Source: a virus. From it: a stretch of DNA of 38,320 bases. Both the position numbers and the translations under genes were made by a program. The stretch is taken from positions 1-38,320 of the IMG/VR virus record IMGVR_UViG_3300049491_000927. One strand, written 5' to 3'. The notes below the pieces were generated by a model. The model ran no database searches. It saw only the letters and a program-made list of their open reading frames with translations, and was not told the origin of the DNA. Below, piece after piece: positions 4,819 through 14,499 of this stretch; positions within the stretch are counted from its first letter, which is position 1; each line of letters begins with the position of its first letter.

Positions 4819-7199
4819 GCTCCTACAGTTGATATCAAAGTTTGAAGATTACTGTAAAAATTAGCCGCATCGAACGTAGTCCCTTGGCCTGCATAGAAGC
4901 ATATAAATTGTGAGTTGGAGAATAGATCTGCGGTGCCGTTGTTATTTCTTGCACCTAAGTATATTCTAGTGGTAGGCCTTCCATTAGAGGTTTGCGAATC
5001 AGAATCTACGTTAGAACCATTTTTTTCTAACGTACTGGTAGTCGATGCTACTCTCTTTATTTCATATAAGGCCCCATTTGAAAAGACTGTTTCTCCATTA
5101 TAACTAGCCGATGTTGATGTGCTATTCATGGTGCGATTGAGCACGTTAGCTGAGCTTTCAGCCAGTGATGTAAAGCGAGTGCCATCACCACAACCGAAAA
5201 GAATCTTAGTTACACCGGCCGCATGGCCCCATGTTTTTACCCACACGCCTGTGCGAGCATTATCTTGCAGATACTTAGTAGCACTGCTAGGTATAAAGCC
5301 TGTATCTACATAGTCATTGACACCATCCGTATTGACATTACTGCCTGAGTTCCAGTTAGCACCATTTACCAAAGAGGCGTTGAAGTTCCCCTTCCAATCC
5401 TTCAATGAATTGATTTCTGTATTAAGCCCGTAAAATTGAAAGCAATCCAGTAGTGTCCAGTTGCCCGATGTTACCTGGCTATCTATAAAAGTAGCCATTG
5501 CATTTTTTAATGCAGTACCAATTGCATCAGGCATTAAGGCGAAAACGGCCGCTGCAGCCACCGAATAGTTAAAGTTGTTAAGCGTGATGGCACCAGTAGT
5601 TTCAGTGCCAACCATAACGTTGCCGGCATAGTCATAGATAGCTGCTCCGCTTGCAGGTTTGATAGTAATGGTTTCCGCACCATTTACTGTACCGGTGATC
5701 GTTAAATTAAATCGAATGGTAGACTCTCCACCGCCCAGTGAGCCACCGGCCGTGGTAACAATACTAGAAATCGTGCAGGCTGTAGCTGTACCACCATTTT
5801 GAGCGAATGTGAGTGTGAAATCGGCTACTACCGGAGGGTTTCTGGATACATCCGTATAAACGCCCTCACTAAAATTGACATCGATGTATGCGTTATTACT
5901 TGCTAATACAGCCGACACAATCTGAGGAGCGGTAGTGTCAATTCCATTCAGGTTTTTATTGCCAGTAGTTTGTGATGTAGGCATCGCATTGCCGGCCGCA
6001 TCGTAAATACTGCTGCTGGTAGCAGGTGTAAGAGAAATAAATTCTGTGCCTGATGGACTGCCGGTAAGTGTTAGGAAAATACGCACGGTGCTTTCTCCAC
6101 CAACCAATGCAGATGCTGCGCCTAAAGTTGAACCATCATTCTTCTTTACTCCTGCAATCGTACAGGCTGTAGCCGTGCCACCATTTTGATTAAAGACAAG
6201 AGCGAAGTCGGATGCTGATAAGCCACCACTTCCACCAGTGTTCGTAAACACACCTTCATTGAAAGTAATGTCGATATAAACATTACTGGCTTGGAGTGCA
6301 CTACTGATAATGCTTGGAGGTACTGTATCTACCACTACGCGGCTGGTATGTGCTATGTAGTAATAGATTTTACCTGCATACGAATTGTAGGTACAAATAA
6401 TGTGGTTGAGCTTGGTGTTATCAAAATCAAGTGAGCCTACAAACTTTTCGAACTTGCTTGAGAAGGTAAGTGTGTTAACTGTGTCACCATTGACCATCAC
6501 ATTCTTTTCGGCACCATGTATAGCTCCGGAAAATGTTGCATCCAGGTTAATGGTGCTACTTTGATCGATATAGACATCACGCAGGTTTTTCGTGAAGCTC
6601 AGCGTAGGATTATAAGTTTCCTGCTTTATAGGCTTTTCGCTTAGCTTTTTGGCTGTAATCGGTTTACTGTCGTCATTCTCTGCGTTTACTTCTGCCTGAG
6701 ATGCTAACGCTCCAATCTTTACCCATTTGCCTGAAGTAATTTCAGTTTCAATATTGGCCGATGTAAATGGCCGAGTGGCTTCAGTAAGCTTATAAAATCC
6801 ATCGCCATCAATGCTATGGCTATAAAAAACAATCTGTAACCCAGACAAGTAAACTCCTGCAGCCCACTCTTTAATGGAAGATCCATCGCTTGGGCTTACT
6901 TCTTTCCAATACGTATTCTCTGTCACAAGCGGATCTGTGGGCGGTTGGTTGCCAGTATTGCCGTTTGTTTTTGAATTCCAAAATCGCAACGCTCCGGTAG
7001 TAGCAGGATAGGTAGTGAAAGCACCTGCTCCACTGCCATTGTTATTAAACGCTAATACATTGGTCCATTCTGGTATGCCAGTGCTAAGGCTTTGTGAGAT
7101 GAAATCAACAATTGCATCTAGGGCGCTATATTCTTGCGCAATGGTTCGTCTGGCAGTTAATGTGCTACGAAAATAGTTTTTTAGCTCGATTGCTGTCAT
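4815..7199 (-). CDS. Tail fibre with two Ig-like repeats and LamG-like C-terminus
   Basis: The 794-aa protein has a modular adhesin layout. Residues 45-162 hold two W/Y-rich carbohydrate-binding-like stretches (FWNSKTNG...NTYWKEVS and EWAAGVYLSG...GKWVKIG). Residues about 294-418 and 424-541 are two related Ig-like repeats of SwmB type: both start PPSIISSAL/APQIVSAVL and contain NQNGGTATACTI or AQNGGTATACTI and AxxIYDxAGN. Residues 550-794 look like a concanavalin/LamG-type lectin domain (RTGVWVKTWG, IYLGARNNNG, FICFYAG). It overlaps the esterase start by ATGA and its own start overlaps the stop of the 214-aa gene. It is most likely the host-recognition fibre. Confidence 0.8.
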   Translation of the reverse strand: MTAIELKNYFRSTLTARRTIAQEYSALDAIVDFISQSLSTGIPEWTNVLAFNNNGSGAGAFTTYPATTGALRFWNSKTNGNTGNQPPTDPLVTENTYWKEVSPSDGSSIKEWAAGVYLSGLQIVFYSHSIDGDGFYKLTEATRPFTSANIETEITSGKWVKIGALASQAEVNAENDDSKPITAKKLSEKPIKQETYNPTLSFTKNLRDVYIDQSSTINLDATFSGAIHGAEKNVMVNGDTVNTLTFSSKFEKFVGSLDFDNTKLNHIICTYNSYAGKIYYYIAHTSRVVVDTVPPSIISSALQASNVYIDITFNEGVFTNTGGSGGLSASDFALVFNQNGGTATACTIAGVKKNDGSTLGAASALVGGESTVRIFLTLTGSPSGTEFISLTPATSSSIYDAAGNAMPTSQTTGNKNLNGIDTTAPQIVSAVLASNNAYIDVNFSEGVYTDVSRNPPVVADFTLTFAQNGGTATACTISSIVTTAGGSLGGGESTIRFNLTITGTVNGAETITIKPASGAAIYDYAGNVMVGTETTGAITLNNFNYSVAAAAVFALMPDAIGTALKNAMATFIDSQVTSGNWTLLDCFQFYGLNTEINSLKDWKGNFNASLVNGANWNSGSNVNTDGVNDYVDTGFIPSSATKYLQDNARTGVWVKTWGHAAGVTKILFGCGDGTRFTSLAESSANVLNRTMNSTSTSASYNGETVFSNGALYEIKRVASTTSTLEKNGSNVDSDSQTSNGRPTTRIYLGARNNNGTADLFSNSQFICFYAGQGTTFDAANFYSNLQTLISTVGA

Positions 7200-8474: not shown

Positions 8475-8771
8475 TTAAGTGAATTCGTAGTGGTCGTTAT
8501 CTCCGCGGATCACTGTAGTGAATGGAAATCCATTTTCAGGCACGCGCTTGATCTGATCGATCATTACCTTTGATCCAATAAAAACAATACGCTTCTCTGT
8601 GCCTTTCATTATTTGTAAGGTAAGCAGCTCGGTACCCTTGTGATGCTTGGACGGCTCGATCTTAAAATCGATTACCGTGATTGTCAGGTTAAACAGTTTT
8701 TGTACCTGAATTTTCTCACCCACAAACGAGTTGGTTTTGGGTTGAATGTTAAAATCTTTAAAGCTGTGCAT
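8475..8771 (-). CDS. DGR-linked small protein, possible OB-fold (98 aa)
   Basis: The ATG lies 14 bases inside the 3' end of the reverse transcriptase gene, so the two are translationally linked. The 98-aa product is made of short strands (VQKLFNLTITVIDFKIEP, ELLTLQIMKG, KRIVFIGSK) and a C-terminal FPFTTVIRGDNDHYEFT segment, which reads like a small OB-fold single-stranded nucleic-acid-binding protein. I infer a role with the cDNA or template RNA; this is not shown. It lacks the four-helix, basic pattern of Avd. Confidence 0.6.
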   Translation of the reverse strand: MHSFKDFNIQPKTNSFVGEKIQVQKLFNLTITVIDFKIEPSKHHKGTELLTLQIMKGTEKRIVFIGSKVMIDQIKRVPENGFPFTTVIRGDNDHYEFT

Positions 8772-9714
8772 GAAGTAACTTTTTGGTTAAGTGTTTGGCG
8801 TTGCAGTGGCCGAGCCAACCGGTATAAGAAGCTTTGCTAGCGTGGTTAGGATTTGCCGCCAGCTTGCGGGCAAAGTTTTGCTTGATGCTCTTGCGGATCC
8901 GCACATGCGTGTGGAAGAAAACATATCCCACGTAATCAATGCCTCTGGCCGCTACCGGAAACACCTGATGATTCTCTTTTACTTCCAGCTTTAGATCAGC
9001 CAAATAAATTTTGATGTTATTCAGCAACTCGTGTAAGATTGCTTTATCGTGGTGGAGAATAACAATGTCATCCGCGTACCGGTAGTAGTACTTTACTCGC
9101 TTTTCTTCTTTGATCCAATGATCGAAATAAGACAGGTAGAAGTTAGCCAGGTATTGGCTCACGTAGTTGCCGATCGGTAATCCAGGTGCGCTATCGACAA
9201 TCTCATCGAGCAGCCACAATAGTTCCTTATCCTTGAACTTGCGCCTGAGCAGGGCCTTCATTGTATCGTGATCAATGCTTGGATAGAATTTCTTTATATC
9301 AAACTTCAGGCAATAAGTAGTGCCTTCGGTATCCTTTAAATCATTTTTAAGTCTGTCCATCAAAGCGTGAATGCCACGCTTTTTTATGCAGCTGTAGGTG
9401 TCGGCAGTAAACGTGCTGACGAAGATCGGTTCGAGAACATTCATAATAGCATGATGTGCGATTCGATCCGGAAAGTATGGGAGGCGATATACAATGCGCT
9501 CCTTAGGTTCGTAAATAGTGAAGATATCATAAGCTGATGTCTTGTAGGATTTGCTGATGAGCATATCTTGAAGTACCAACAAATTACCTTCAGCATTTTT
9601 GTTGTGGAGAATTACCCCATATTGATTTGCCTTTCCTTTCTGACCTTTGCGGTCAGCCTCTTGCAGGTTGGATAGGCTTGTGATCTTCTCGTAGATGTTA
9701 CCGATTCGTTTCAT
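8758..9714 (-). CDS. DGR reverse transcriptase
   Basis: The 318-aa protein has the reverse-transcriptase blocks in order: YRLPYFPDRIAHHAIMNVLE (about 76-95), KFDIKKFYPSIDHD with Asp139, GLPIGNYVSQ at 178-187, YRYADDIVIL with Asp215 and Asp216, and IDYVGYVFF (259-267). The GxxxSQ block instead of the QGxxxSP of group II intron RTs is the known mark of DGR enzymes. Length fits the family (about 300-400 aa), and there is no maturase or endonuclease domain. It follows the 133-aa gene by 4 bases, downstream of the template repeat, so it would copy template RNA into adenine-mutagenised cDNA for homing into the three variable repeats. Confidence 0.97.
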   Translation of the reverse strand: MKRIGNIYEKITSLSNLQEADRKGQKGKANQYGVILHNKNAEGNLLVLQDMLISKSYKTSAYDIFTIYEPKERIVYRLPYFPDRIAHHAIMNVLEPIFVSTFTADTYSCIKKRGIHALMDRLKNDLKDTEGTTYCLKFDIKKFYPSIDHDTMKALLRRKFKDKELLWLLDEIVDSAPGLPIGNYVSQYLANFYLSYFDHWIKEEKRVKYYYRYADDIVILHHDKAILHELLNNIKIYLADLKLEVKENHQVFPVAARGIDYVGYVFFHTHVRIRKSIKQNFARKLAANPNHASKASYTGWLGHCNAKHLTKKLLHAQL

Positions 9715-9718
9715 CTTA

Positions 9719-10120
9719 TCAGAACAATTTAGTGCAGTATCGAAACCCTTGAAATCCTTTTAACTCTCGCTTAAATGGGCAGCGTACAAAAGGACCAACC
9801 AATACGATACGTGGCCATTCAACTAATTTGTCTGTTCCGTCAGGCTTATAAGCAAACGTGGCACTCTTTTCGTACCATCCGAATTTCACTTTACCCCAAA
9901 GTCGATTAAGAGTTATAATGTAGACGTCACAAAATTCCACCGTTGGCCAGAGCATCATCTTATGCATCCAATAGGCATTTTCATCCTGCATTGTCTTTAA
10001 GAAATGTTCCATCATTGCTTTTTTACCTCCATTACTTTCCATCATTTGCTTGCCAAATGTTATAGCAATTGCTTCTGGTCTTATTGATGGGTCTTTTGAA
10101 TATCCTGTTTCTGTTATCAT
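9719..10120 (-). CDS. Unknown DGR-locus protein between template repeat and RT (133 aa)
   Basis: The gene lies between the template repeat and the reverse transcriptase, and is preceded by a purine-rich AAAGGAAA 4 bases upstream of its ATG, one of the few possible ribosome sites in this window. The protein has a helical first half (residues about 20-60, ITFGKQMMESNGGKKAMMEH then ENAYWMHKMMLW) and a strand-rich, basic second half ending KGFQGFRYCTKLF. It does not look like the basic four-helix-bundle Avd that usually accompanies DGR RTs. It may be a substitute accessory factor or an unrelated passenger; location is the only evidence. Confidence 0.65.
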   Translation of the reverse strand: MITETGYSKDPSIRPEAIAITFGKQMMESNGGKKAMMEHFLKTMQDENAYWMHKMMLWPTVEFCDVYIITLNRLWGKVKFGWYEKSATFAYKPDGTDKLVEWPRIVLVGPFVRCPFKRELKGFQGFRYCTKLF

Positions 10121-10329
10121 AGTTTCCTTTGCTTCTTATAAGTCGCTTTCGCTTTACACTACCAACGACCTACGTTTTTAACTCGTTATTTTTTGCCGAG
10201 AGGCAGGGCCTGCAATGATTTTAAATTCAGCAGAGGTGAGAGCTGACATTCGAATTCGAATTCCAATTATCGTAGTCGTTATACCGAAACCCGGACGAAC
10301 CGCCCATATCATCGCACAGCCTTTCATTC
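10121..10329 (-). ncRNA. Likely DGR template RNA region (non-coding, contains TR)
   Basis: This 209-base stretch between the last variable-protein gene and the 133-aa gene has no convincing coding frame and holds the template repeat (10230-10307). In known DGRs the RNA copied by the RT comprises TR plus flanking sequence. Limits here are set by the neighbouring genes, not by a seen promoter or processing site. An 11-base near-palindrome (GCAGGGCCTGC, 10203-10213) lies 17 bases past the 3' end of TR. Confidence 0.7.
10230..10307 (-). repeat. DGR template repeat (TR), 78 bp
   Basis: The 78 bases align without gaps to three variable repeats at 10405-10482, 10799-10876 and 11198-11275. Read on the minus strand it would encode MGGSSGFRYNDYDNWNSNSN and then VSSHLC, with AAY codons at most variable positions. 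It has 17 adenines on that strand. VR1, VR2 and VR3 differ at 14, 11 and 12 of these; outside adenines there is one difference, a C in TR where all three VRs have T (10233). It starts 22 bases after the stop of the last variable-protein gene. Confidence 0.96.
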
Positions 10330-10716
10330 TTACATTACAAAATAGTCCTTGTACAGCTTTTCAAATTGCTTGCCTGCATGCTCCGCAGCTTCGCGAGAAA
10401 TAAAGCAAAGGCGAGAGCCGACACCCGAAAGCGAAGACCAAGAATCGCAGCCGTAAGACCGAAACCCGGACGAACCGCCCATGTCAAACCATGGGTAGTA
10501 TTTATCCCATTGTCCATTTTTCCAATCAGGCTTCCAAGCCTTGCCCTTGTTAGCTACTTTGTTGATAGCTCTGGCTATAATCACAAGTTTAGCATGAGCC
10601 AATAAAGCAGCTTGATCTTTTTTAGGGTATGATGTAACCTTTGGTAATACCTTCTTCGCATCGATGCGCTCAACCTTGCAAGCGTCCTCAAATGTCTTGA
10701 TGTCGGTGATTTCCAT
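10330..10716 (-). CDS. DGR variable protein 1 (128 aa)
   Basis: The 128-aa target protein has an N-terminal helical part (KTFEDACKV at 7-15, shared with variable protein 2), a WKPDW block at 61-65, KYYPWFDMGGSSGFR, the variable segment (residues 79-104) and a conserved tail with AEHAGKQFEKLYKDY. Variable residues read SYGCDSWSSLSG where the template would give YNDYDNWNSNSN. Small proteins with this WKPDW-YYPWF-GSRLCF-AGKQF pattern are known as DGR targets in Bacteroidota; the fold is probably C-type-lectin-like, which is inference. There is no signal peptide or obvious tail anchor. It is 4 bases from variable gene 2. Confidence 0.93.
   Translation of the reverse strand: MEITDIKTFEDACKVERIDAKKVLPKVTSYPKKDQAALLAHAKLVIIARAINKVANKGKAWKPDWKNGQWDKYYPWFDMGGSSGFRSYGCDSWSSLSGVGSRLCFISREAAEHAGKQFEKLYKDYFVM
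10405..10482 (-). repeat. DGR variable repeat VR1
   Basis: This codes residues 79-104 of variable protein 1. It differs from the template at 14 of 17 coding-strand adenines and at one shared C-to-T site. The 3' end (CTCGCCTTTGC on the coding strand) is identical in all three VRs and differs from the template's CTCACCTCTGC, so it is the candidate initiation-of-mutagenic-homing site. Confidence 0.95.
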
Positions 10717-10720
10717 AGTT

Positions 10721-11104
10721 CTATTCTATTACCATCAATTGTTTGTACAGATCAGTAAACTGCTGCCCAATGTATACAGCTGTGGACCTTTCTTTAAAGC
10801 AAAGGCGAGAGCCGACACCCGAAGCCGAAAGCCAAATATCGTAGACGTCATACCGAAACCCGGACGAACCGCCCATTTCAAACCAGGGGGTATACTTATA
10901 CTCATCGTAATCATTCCAATCCGGCTTCCATTCTTCACCGTTGTTGTCGATGCGATTAGCTGCCTTGTTAATGATCATCAACTTAGTTGCAGCTTCAACC
11001 GGAGCACGCAATGCTTCCGGAAAAGAAGACAAGTCTAAGTTTAGTTTTTCGATACCCTCGACCTTGCAAGCGTCTTCGAATGTTTTCAAATCTTGAATTT
11101 CCAT
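10721..11104 (-). CDS. DGR variable protein 2 (127 aa)
   Basis: This is the second of three tandem variable proteins, with the same layout as protein 1: LKTFEDACKVEGI at the start, WKPDWNDYDEYKYTPWFEMG, the variable segment at residues 77-102, and IGQQFTDLYKQL at the end. Variable residues are YDVYDIWLSASG. It has lost the His/Ala-Gly-Lys form of the tail (AVYIGQQF versus AEHAGKQF), so the C-terminus is slightly diverged. It is 15 bases from variable gene 3 and 4 bases from variable gene 1, consistent with one transcript. Confidence 0.93.
   Translation of the reverse strand: MEIQDLKTFEDACKVEGIEKLNLDLSSFPEALRAPVEAATKLMIINKAANRIDNNGEEWKPDWNDYDEYKYTPWFEMGGSSGFRYDVYDIWLSASGVGSRLCFKERSTAVYIGQQFTDLYKQLMVIE
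10799..10876 (-). repeat. DGR variable repeat VR2
   Basis: This codes residues 77-102 of variable protein 2. It differs from the template at 11 coding-strand adenines plus the shared C-to-T site. No other base differs over the 78 positions. Confidence 0.95.
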
Positions 11105-11119
11105 ATTGAGTTAGTTGTT

Positions 11120-11572
11120 TTAGTTGATAACCATGAATTGCTTATACACTTCGATAAACTGCTTACCTGCATGCTCCGCGAGCTTGCTAGATTTGAAGCA
11201 AAGGCGAGAGCCGACAGCCGAACCCGAACGCCAATAAGCGCAGTCGTCATACCGAAACCCGGACGAACCGCCCATTTCAAAATATGGGTAGTACTTGATC
11301 TCATTGGAGTTGTTCCAATCAGGCTTCCAGCCTTCATTGAGCGTCTCGGCAAGCATCTTCAAAATGCGATAAGCTTTCTCATCATCCGACAATGATTCAC
11401 AGCTTGTATCAAACTGTGCCTTTGTCAGGCCATGTGCAGCCAAGATATCATCCACGGTTTTTATCCGCTCCATGACATCCTTTGGCTTTTCTTTCAGCTT
11501 CATCAATTTGGTGATTGGATCGAAGCTGTCGAAAGTGAACCCTTCGGGGATTTCAATTTTGAGTGTTTCCAT
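11120..11572 (-). CDS. DGR variable protein 3 (150 aa)
   Basis: This is the first-transcribed and longest variable protein. Its extra N-terminal 20-25 residues (LKIEIPEGFTFDSFDPITKL) resemble the short strand-rich leader seen on related small Bacteroidota proteins. A helical part with KTVDDILAAHGLT follows, then WKPDWNNSNEIKYYPYFEMG, the variable segment at 100-125 and LAEHAGKQFIEVYKQFM. Variable residues are YDDCAYWRSGSA. It starts 11 bases after the 88-aa gene, so the DGR probably shares a transcript with that gene. Confidence 0.93.
   Translation of the reverse strand: METLKIEIPEGFTFDSFDPITKLMKLKEKPKDVMERIKTVDDILAAHGLTKAQFDTSCESLSDDEKAYRILKMLAETLNEGWKPDWNNSNEIKYYPYFEMGGSSGFRYDDCAYWRSGSAVGSRLCFKSSKLAEHAGKQFIEVYKQFMVIN
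11198..11275 (-). repeat. DGR variable repeat VR3
   Basis: This codes residues 100-125 of variable protein 3. It differs from the template at 12 coding-strand adenines plus the shared C-to-T site. It alone changes the adenine at template position 10270 (GAT to GCT, Asp to Ala). Confidence 0.95.
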
Positions 11573-12024: not shown

Positions 12025-14499
12025 TCAAAACGGTAAATCATCGTTGGTTGATTTTTGTGCAGCAACTGGCTGGACTTGCTCAACATCATCGGGCACAGTA
12101 GCAAATGACACCGGCTTCAAAAACTCCGCTTTCTGGTCCTCACGAAGCCAAGCATCGGCCACAAACTTGTAGGGCCGGCCCATCTCTTCTTTGTAGATAA
12201 TCTTACCATCATTGAGTGCATCTCCCATATCAAAACCTACCGGTACTTTGATGCGCTGGGGCACTTCTATCTTCAATCCCTTGCGCTCCAGGTATGCCTT
12301 CAATTCGATCGAATCGATCTTGTACTTGCTGTTCTTCGGATCGTTGAAAACTTCGGTAAGAAACTTCTGCGAGAAGCGTAGGACCGGTAGACGGTACAAC
12401 ATAAACTGCTCTTGAATCCAATCTTCAAACACGCGATCGACACGGTTCTTGGTGGCTTCAACAATAATCTTGAACTGCTCAGTAATGAAATCATCCGGGC
12501 TAAACCAAAGCCGATCGACACGCTTATGAAATATGGGTCTGTATTGTAAGAAGTATAACCAGGCCTCTGCCTCTGCCTTCATCTTGTTCTCCAAATCAGG
12601 ATCTCTATTCTCTTTTGGGATGACCGGTACTCGCACCACAAACCACCGGCTTTCACCTTCTTCAATCTTCATCAGGCGATCGGCATCATTACTGCAAATG
12701 ATGATCTTGGCGTAGTATGGGATCTTGCGTACGTTCATGCCCTTTAATTCCAGATAGATGCTGTCAGCTGTTACCAATTGCTTGAGACGCTCTTTCTCAG
12801 CTTTCTTATCTACCTCGAGGAAACCCTCATCAATGCTGATGACAAACTTGGTGGCATAGTGCCCATTGAATTTCATTTGAAACTGCGCATTTCCCAGAAT
12901 GCACATGTTATCGCCAAAAAGCATTTGAAGCCATTTGAGAAATGTAGTCTTACCGGTACCATTCTCCGGAGAAACTAAGCAAGGTACAGGCAGCATGTGT
13001 TTTGGGTGCTTTAGTAAAATGGTCAACCAATCCAATGCTACAGTGAACTGATCGCCTTGGAATGCTTCTTCACGTTCAAAGCGACCTTGGTCATCTAAAA
13101 TGATTTTGCCTTGGCCACCGAATAAATGTTTGATTAAGCCGATCGTATTGGCAATGCTTCCTTCGGTTGGCTTCCACTTGAGCGGTCGGCATACATTGTA
13201 ACAGTTGAGAACGCTTTGTTGATATTGACCATTCCAATTTGGCTCGTTGCAAAATCCATCGTAGCGAGTAATGGTATCGATAAAATCCGGATAGCGCTTG
13301 GCATAGTCGCGTTGGATCTCGCTAATCTTCCATGGTACCAGCTCCTCTTCCGGCTCCCCATGTTTGTTGATTGTGCTAATCACCTTCACCCAGTCCGGGC
13401 CGATGCGCATGAACTTCTCGGCATCTTCATGCTTTACAAAAACGACTTCCTTCTTTTCTTTGTCGTATATGTAGCGCCTGCGCTTGAATCGGAATTCGCG
13501 ATCGCCAATAAAGTCTCCGTAAGTTTTATAGAAGTCATCCTCATTAACAAGTCCTAGCTCCTTGTACAATCGGCCTTGCACATCTTTACTCAGATCGTTG
13601 ATGGCCATGCCATCGAAATACTTGCGGGCAAAATTAAGTGTGTGAAGATCCTCGATGATTTCGATAGTCTTAGATTCATACTTGATAAGCAAATCATCGA
13701 GGCCCTTAGCATCGTTCATGAACTTGCTTTTGATGTACATGAAGTAGACGTACTGTAATGAGACAGCTTCATCATCGAGCAGCAGCTGCAGGCTTTCGCG
13801 GAAAGCTTTCACCGATCCGTAGAAACTATTAGGTCGTTTAGACAGGTCCTTTCCTTCGGCCCACTTTACGCTCAGTAAATCGGCATCTACGAGAAATACG
13901 ATCTTCTGTACCTGGCAGGTGATGATTACATCTTCAATGTCTTCGTGCAGCCGGCCTTTTACATCGCCATTGTAAAACCCATGGATGCTTGGAAGCCCGA
14001 TTATATCTACTCCGCATAAGCTTGCTTTGATGGACTTGATCTCACCTTCCACCAGAAATAGCGTGTGGATCTGTCCGGGATTATCGCCCTGCTTTTCTTC
14101 TTTCCACTCAGCAGCTTGGTTGTACTTTTCAATTATGTTCTTAGAGAAGAAAGGAAACTGTGGGGAACCGGGCTCCTGGTAATATTTCATGTCACCCTTT
14201 GGCACTTTCAGGCGCTTGCGAGAATAGTCGCGGCTCCATTTTCGCTCTTCATCTTTCCATCGGTATGGCTGGCCGTGTTGGTTGAAATAGTGAATAACAA
14301 TGTTGCCGTGCTGATCTGCATCGAGGATTTGATAATCGCGCTCGTGATCATGTTGGGCAATGACCGTTTTACCATCTACAGTTTCGCTGGTTTCCTGCTG
14401 CCATTTTCGCTTGAACGTGTTTTGTTCTTCGGTAATGCCAAGTTGCTGCAGGCGCTCGATAAGATAAGTGGTGTCTTTTATTTGGTTGGTGTCGGTCAC
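12025..14499 (-). CDS. Phage primase-helicase (Toprim-like plus DUF5906-type SF3 helicase)
   Basis: The 824-aa protein joins two replication activities. An N-terminal Toprim-like part has FLVEGEIKSIKAS (Glu151) and VFLVDADLLS (Asp205, Asp207). A C-terminal superfamily-3-type helicase has Walker A PENGTGKTT (511-519), Walker B ISIDEG (555-559), the sensor SND (603-605) and GESRWF (615-620). This matches the DUF5906/D5-like primase-helicases of phages. The start is GTG at 14499, with no ATG near a plausible N-terminus. The last residues are DDLPF, a motif like the SSB-type acidic tail. The gene lies directly before the repeat cluster that may be the origin. Confidence 0.9.
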   Translation of the reverse strand: MTDTNQIKDTTYLIERLQQLGITEEQNTFKRKWQQETSETVDGKTVIAQHDHERDYQILDADQHGNIVIHYFNQHGQPYRWKDEERKWSRDYSRKRLKVPKGDMKYYQEPGSPQFPFFSKNIIEKYNQAAEWKEEKQGDNPGQIHTLFLVEGEIKSIKASLCGVDIIGLPSIHGFYNGDVKGRLHEDIEDVIITCQVQKIVFLVDADLLSVKWAEGKDLSKRPNSFYGSVKAFRESLQLLLDDEAVSLQYVYFMYIKSKFMNDAKGLDDLLIKYESKTIEIIEDLHTLNFARKYFDGMAINDLSKDVQGRLYKELGLVNEDDFYKTYGDFIGDREFRFKRRRYIYDKEKKEVVFVKHEDAEKFMRIGPDWVKVISTINKHGEPEEELVPWKISEIQRDYAKRYPDFIDTITRYDGFCNEPNWNGQYQQSVLNCYNVCRPLKWKPTEGSIANTIGLIKHLFGGQGKIILDDQGRFEREEAFQGDQFTVALDWLTILLKHPKHMLPVPCLVSPENGTGKTTFLKWLQMLFGDNMCILGNAQFQMKFNGHYATKFVISIDEGFLEVDKKAEKERLKQLVTADSIYLELKGMNVRKIPYYAKIIICSNDADRLMKIEEGESRWFVVRVPVIPKENRDPDLENKMKAEAEAWLYFLQYRPIFHKRVDRLWFSPDDFITEQFKIIVEATKNRVDRVFEDWIQEQFMLYRLPVLRFSQKFLTEVFNDPKNSKYKIDSIELKAYLERKGLKIEVPQRIKVPVGFDMGDALNDGKIIYKEEMGRPYKFVADAWLREDQKAEFLKPVSFATVPDDVEQVQPVAAQKSTNDDLPF

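Follow-up and report, generated by a model that had tools for sequence, protein, structure and literature searches.

Organization of the locus

The window, that is, the whole stretch of DNA analyzed here, is a 38,320-base virus record. It encodes an integrase, a repressor-like protein, a tape-measure protein, and an endolysin, and is thus a temperate tailed phage. It carries a cluster of genes and repeats, all on the minus strand, arranged in the order of transcription as target gene 3, target gene 2, target gene 1, the template repeat (TR), a spacer RNA, orf133, the reverse transcriptase (RT) gene, and orf98. Target genes 3 (11120..11572, 150 aa), 2 (10721..11104, 127 aa), and 1 (10330..10716, 128 aa) encode members of the same family, phrog_11581, the product of target gene 3 having a differing N-terminal part. 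Each holds one variable repeat (VR3, VR2, and VR1, respectively), placed near the 3' end of the gene as in other diversity-generating retroelements (DGRs); VR1 thus falls near the C-terminus of the product. The fold expected of a DGR variable protein is that of C-type lectins; the AlphaFold model of the variable protein here is poor over the VR, and fold searches with this protein retrieved no PDB match among those listed, only uncharacterised phage proteins. Directly upstream of the target genes, positions 12025-14499 encode a primase-like protein of 824 aa with a DUF5906 domain.

The RT gene (8758..9714), situated 0.5 kb downstream of the TR, encodes a DGR-type protein of 318 aa with the IGNYVSQ and YADD motifs, which belongs to PHROG 1423 (phrog_1423, E 2e-120) and matches PF00078 (E 3e-19). 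Its homologues define 80 viral loci (65-84% identity) and 70 genome loci, and about 160 relatives, mostly from Bacteroidota genomes, were compared. The TR and VRs of the relatives, detected by a script that seeks repeats differing at A's, were found in most loci, the usual layout being two or three tandem VRs upstream of the TR and the RT about 100 bases downstream of it. In a related group (L110-L139), drawn mostly from gut Bacteroidales, the TR measures about 110-125 bases and there is mostly one VR; the RT-17-like spacer is weaker there, and in five loci a diverged orf98 is the second gene after the RT.

Template and variable repeats

The TR (10230..10307, 78 bases) and the three VRs (VR1, 10405..10482; VR2, 10799..10876; VR3, 11198..11275) were located exactly by an earlier sequence-only reading of this DNA, and a search of the whole record returned no further copies. 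On the coding (minus) strand, the TR differs from VR1 at 14 A's and one C, from VR2 at 11 A's and one C, and from VR3 at 12 A's and one C. Given 17 A's among the 78 bases of the TR, this concentration of differences has hypergeometric P values of 1e-11, 2e-8, and 2e-9, respectively. The adenine counts of the earlier reading are therefore exact, but two of these adenines (10244 and 10237) are fixed in all canonical relatives and do not reflect mutagenesis. The truly variable adenines thus number only 15, of which 12, 9, and 10 differ in VR1, VR2, and VR3. All A-containing codons of the TR have C or T as the third base, so that mutation at an A yields no stop codon, in agreement with the proposed diversification without stops.

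The A-specific pattern and the adjoining DGR-type RT indicate, on the evidence of single assemblies of the window and its relatives, that this is a true DGR. The view that one template serves three targets by adenine-specific mutagenesis, put forward in the sequence-only reading, is thus supported by the RT and by the relatives; that reading was confined to the repeats and mentioned neither the RT (8758-9714) nor the spacer RNA nor the conserved gene after the RT.

Fixed sites at the 3' end of the repeats

To compare the repeats between genomes, 109 VRs from 55 DGRs were aligned with their TRs by anchoring on the 3' end. At columns -41 to -5 the template A's are mutated to all bases and non-A changes are close to zero, which is the outcome expected when such a check was proposed. 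The 3' ends are non-identical, as is typical of DGRs, with IMH in the VR and IMH* in the TR. Columns 0 and 7 are always A in the TR and always G in the VR (109/109), and column 11 is T in 109/109 VRs, where the TR has A in 102 cases, G in 4, and C in 3, the last being those of the window. The corresponding differences between TR and VR in the window are A versus G at 10244, A versus G at 10237, and C versus T at 10233, the last being the single non-adenine site already noticed as common to all three VRs. Column 11 falls on the synonymous third position of a CTN codon for Leu; selection on the protein cannot fix T there, and the constraint acts on DNA or RNA. As judged from the alignment, the lone non-A site and the two adenines are IMH/IMH* differences, with no mutagenesis event involved. 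In BPP-1, the IMH/IMH* difference sets the direction of transfer (PMC3240598).

Adenines at the 5' end of the TR (columns -61 to -48, for instance in L010 and L069) are nearly always G in the VR, so transfer seems to be limited to the middle of the TR.

Spacer RNA

The region between the TR and the next gene (10125..10229, minus strand) encodes an RT-17-like spacer (Sp) RNA. Its first hairpin lies at about 10205-10194 and its second, which has an internal loop, at about 10172-10139; the 3' element AGCAAAGG (10126..10133) follows. Both hairpins show covariation: RNAalifold predicts 14 pairs, 12 of them with two-sided changes, 88% of cells are paired, and the covariation score is 0.385 versus 0.162 after shuffling and at most 0.074 after sliding. 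The single-sequence fold of the window spacer has a z of only -0.74, and the structure therefore rests on covariation. Our own covariance model matches nearly all loci of the lineage and, weakly, crAss LMMB and archaeal viruses. The Rfam model RF03020 (RT-17), named without mention of the TR or of target pairing, resembles the window spacer in place and structure; it scores 32 bits (E 1.5e-4), under the cut-off of 40.4 bits, which is exceeded in the relatives L030 and L146. The spacer RNA has been kept in the window despite the presence of orf133 between it and the RT. In vir525 (L228 4977), the RT is annotated as starting at a TTG immediately behind the hairpin motif of the spacer; the ATG at 4998 agrees better with the homology. 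A tertiary ACC/GGU pairing between spacer segments, examined by eye, was dropped, most changes in it being uncompensated.

Pairing of the spacer with the variable and template repeats

The 3' element AGCAAAGG pairs completely with the VR end CCTTTGCT, whereas its pairing with the TR end, CCUxUGCU, fails at column 11, leaving one C.A mismatch. The IMH segments concerned are CCTTTGCTTT in VR1 (10411-10402) and VR2 (10805-10796) and CCTTTGCTTC in VR3 (11204-11195). Exact complements to the spacer reach 9-10 bases for each VR of the window and 5 for the TR. Across 65 sequences, the TR-spacer helix has one pair that fails in 59, and this is the pair at the fixed site. Among 116 DGRs, the longest exact complement is longer for the VR than for the TR in 110, equal in 6, and shorter in none, the means being 8.6 nt for the VR, 5.3 for the TR, 5.2 for a shuffled spacer, and 5.4 for the same sense; that is, the TR does not rise above the shuffled baseline.

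The spacer also follows the IMH where the latter has diverged. In the 28 loci with a non-canonical IMH, the own spacer beats permuted spacers on the own VR (0/10,000), while on the TR it fits no better than permuted spacers do (1,759/10,000). For instance, the complement to a divergent VR amounts to 11 bases in L101 and L126, 9 in L052, 7 in L136, and 10 in the distant L146. Spacers that lack one A (CAAGG) co-occur with VRs that lack one T (CCTTG) in all five loci, and only three loci with the canonical spacer have such a VR. Recombination may have given two of the compensated loci, L045 and L059, a common cassette, so the independent compensatory events number about three. The TR end of L059 resembles that of L045. 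The RTs of L054 and L059 are close (tree distance 0.09), and their spacers and IMHs differ in a matched way; TR-VR-spacer cassettes may move between phages as a unit.

Some VRs do not fit their own spacers (L042, L060, L063, L108, L131, L134, and L138). A simple complement test on a dozen other phage DGRs mostly did not reveal the pairing, with nothing seen in hankyphage, crAss LMMB, nd12, Lagaffe, Arawn, ANMV-1, and vir525. The pairing rule is thus either not universal or missed by this crude test. The better pairing of the spacer with the VR than with the TR suggests that target choice is encoded in the RNA. Our literature search, which fell short of key papers, found no earlier report of spacer-VR pairing, and a prior mention is possible.

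Comparison with BPP-1

The DGR of Bordetella phage BPP-1 (NC_005357) shares with the window an A-specific TR/VR pair, IMH and IMH*, and a spacer between the TR and the RT, but has Avd, one target, a longer TR, a spacer RNA of another family (RF03022, Phage_DGR), and no orf98. In its spacer, the segment AGGUGGUCA is a perfect complement of TGACCACCT in the VR, where the TR reads TGCCCATCA; the primer segment of the spacer thus complements the VR IMH better than the TR, as in the window. This segment ends at spacer A56, the nucleotide from which priming, opposite TR G117, is reported to occur. Among 44 BPP-1-like DGRs, a spacer GUGGUCA and a VR TGACCAC occur together in 35, and TGACCAC is found in the TR of none. 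A best-complement search in this set is biased towards the VR, and the anchored count of 35/44 is therefore the one to trust. The pairing rule is thus followed in two lineages whose spacer RNAs differ. The primer arrangement published for BPP-1 is a TR-spacer RNA duplex (summarized in PMC12875486).

Lineage and accessory genes

The bAvd family (PF22296) is absent from the record and from 15 relatives and was detected in three of three positive controls; PF05635 was dropped as an Avd probe, as it fails on BPP-1 itself. An Avd-less "lineage 3" of DGRs was defined by Wu et al. 2018, as summarized in PMC7290462. The window agrees with it in the target-TR-RT order, the lack of avd, and a VR ending in the SRLC motif. 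By its layout and motif, the window DGR is a new member of this known Avd-less lineage; the two or three tandem small targets set the window and its relatives apart. More than one target per template is also known from the gut phages nd4 and nd12 (tentaclins, PMC10743442), where the two targets are of unlike type, in contrast to the three small related tandem proteins of the window.

The orf98 gene (8475..8771, minus strand) comes right after the RT, overlapping it by 14 bases. A tblastn search places its homologues after the RT in 123 of the 149 loci of the lineage. Diverged forms occur in five long-TR loci, L132, and L142, and none of 48 BPP-1-like loci has the gene. Of the 13 loci fetched with the orf98 protein on its own, every one has an RT upstream, and two lie on contigs outside the RT set. 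In the archaeal virus ANMV-1 (PMC4372165), an orf98 homologue likewise lies directly after the RT, at a distance of 2 bases, although this DGR has a single large target, AdtA, and no spacer-VR complement was seen in it by eye. The model of orf98 has OB-fold topology (pLDDT 89), and its nearest structures, at a weak to modest match (best Z 6.7), are OB domains including those of single-strand-binding proteins. Based on this model and the gene linkage, orf98 probably stands in for Avd as an accessory protein that handles nucleic acids. Conserved hypothetical accessory genes were reportedly noted in DGRs by Wu in 2018, and orf98 may be one of them.

The second small gene, orf133 (9719..10120, minus strand), separates the spacer RNA from the RT and is found in this phage only. 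It was rejected as an Avd analogue, having no family match and being unique to the window, and relatives carry unrelated ORFs at this place. Such small ORFs occupy 9719-10120 in the window, 5600-6001 in L006, 3244-3528 in L019, and 2543-2746 in L028; genes are preferentially inserted at this place, always after AGCAAAG.

Proposed mechanism and alternatives

We consider it quite probable that the window carries an Avd-less three-target DGR in which spacer-VR pairing sets target choice, the mismatch guards the TR, and orf98 replaces Avd. Transcription would produce a target-TR-spacer RNA, in which the spacer hairpins would bring AGCAAAGG to the TR 3' end CCUCUGCU to form a mismatched duplex. The 3' element of the spacer would then prime cDNA synthesis on the TR end, as published for BPP-1, and the RT would copy the TR part of the TR-spacer RNA with misincorporation opposite adenines. 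The RNA end of the resulting RNA-cDNA chimera, matching the VR and not the TR, could anneal without interruption to the exposed coding strand of a VR. The cDNA would take the place of the middle segment in one or another of the three VRs, and repair would fix the change; the fixed IMH/IMH* differences would make the VR the target and protect the TR. Priming at AAAGG would copy the TR A's at columns 0 and 7, yet the VR always has G there, so transfer must be assumed to stop short of the first cDNA bases. An Okazaki-like intermediate was proposed earlier by Naorem et al., as cited in PMC12875486. We infer the priming site, the nicking, and the role of orf98 in this scheme, and from the sequence comparisons we likewise infer that the pairing acts in both priming and target choice.

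The spacer could instead belong to an ordinary DGR and need to pair only with the TR end, so as to prime; it would then match the VR as a by-product of the ancestry that TR and VR share. Such an explanation fits the retention of most pairs in the TR-spacer helix, and the TR-spacer duplex published for BPP-1 (summarized in PMC12875486) is of this kind. It does not easily account for a VR pairing that is better in 110 of 116 loci and worse in none, for a TR mismatch at one fixed synonymous site, for spacer changes that follow the VR and not the TR, or for the same pattern in BPP-1-type DGRs, whose spacer RNA is unrelated; we regard it as rather unlikely. The conserved AAAGG, which precedes the ATG of the RT in most loci, might also be a ribosome-binding site that matches the VR IMH by chance. 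This seems highly improbable, as the AAAGG-ATG distance varies from 0 to about 20 bases, AGC is conserved as well, the next ATG in the window starts an unrelated inserted gene, the equivalent element of BPP-1 is far from the RT start, and compensatory changes are observed.

The DGR might also be a decayed one that has kept its repeats from a time when it was active. All three VRs might be old, and single assemblies give no direct sign of present activity. With the RT, the three target genes, and the RNA structure intact, and with 78-base repeats free of non-A drift save the conserved IMH site, we find this improbable.

The rewriting of the VR and not of the TR is credited to the IMH/IMH* difference, for which we found no stated mechanism in the literature consulted, and retrohoming is still called incompletely understood (PMC12875486, 2026). 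We lean towards a broader proposal, namely an "anti-IMH" in at least two lineages (RT-17-like and Phage_DGR), a primer imperfect on the TR and perfect on the VR IMH that would set target choice and protect the TR, with the OB-fold protein as the missing accessory factor of the Avd-less lineage, from phages of Bacteroidota to archaeal viruses. What merits the attention of specialists is above all the pairing rule and the OB-fold partner. The conserved OB-fold gene is a candidate for the accessory protein of Avd-less DGRs, and if base pairing is how the spacer RNA reads the IMH, the choice of target would follow a simple rule, testable by compensatory mutation.
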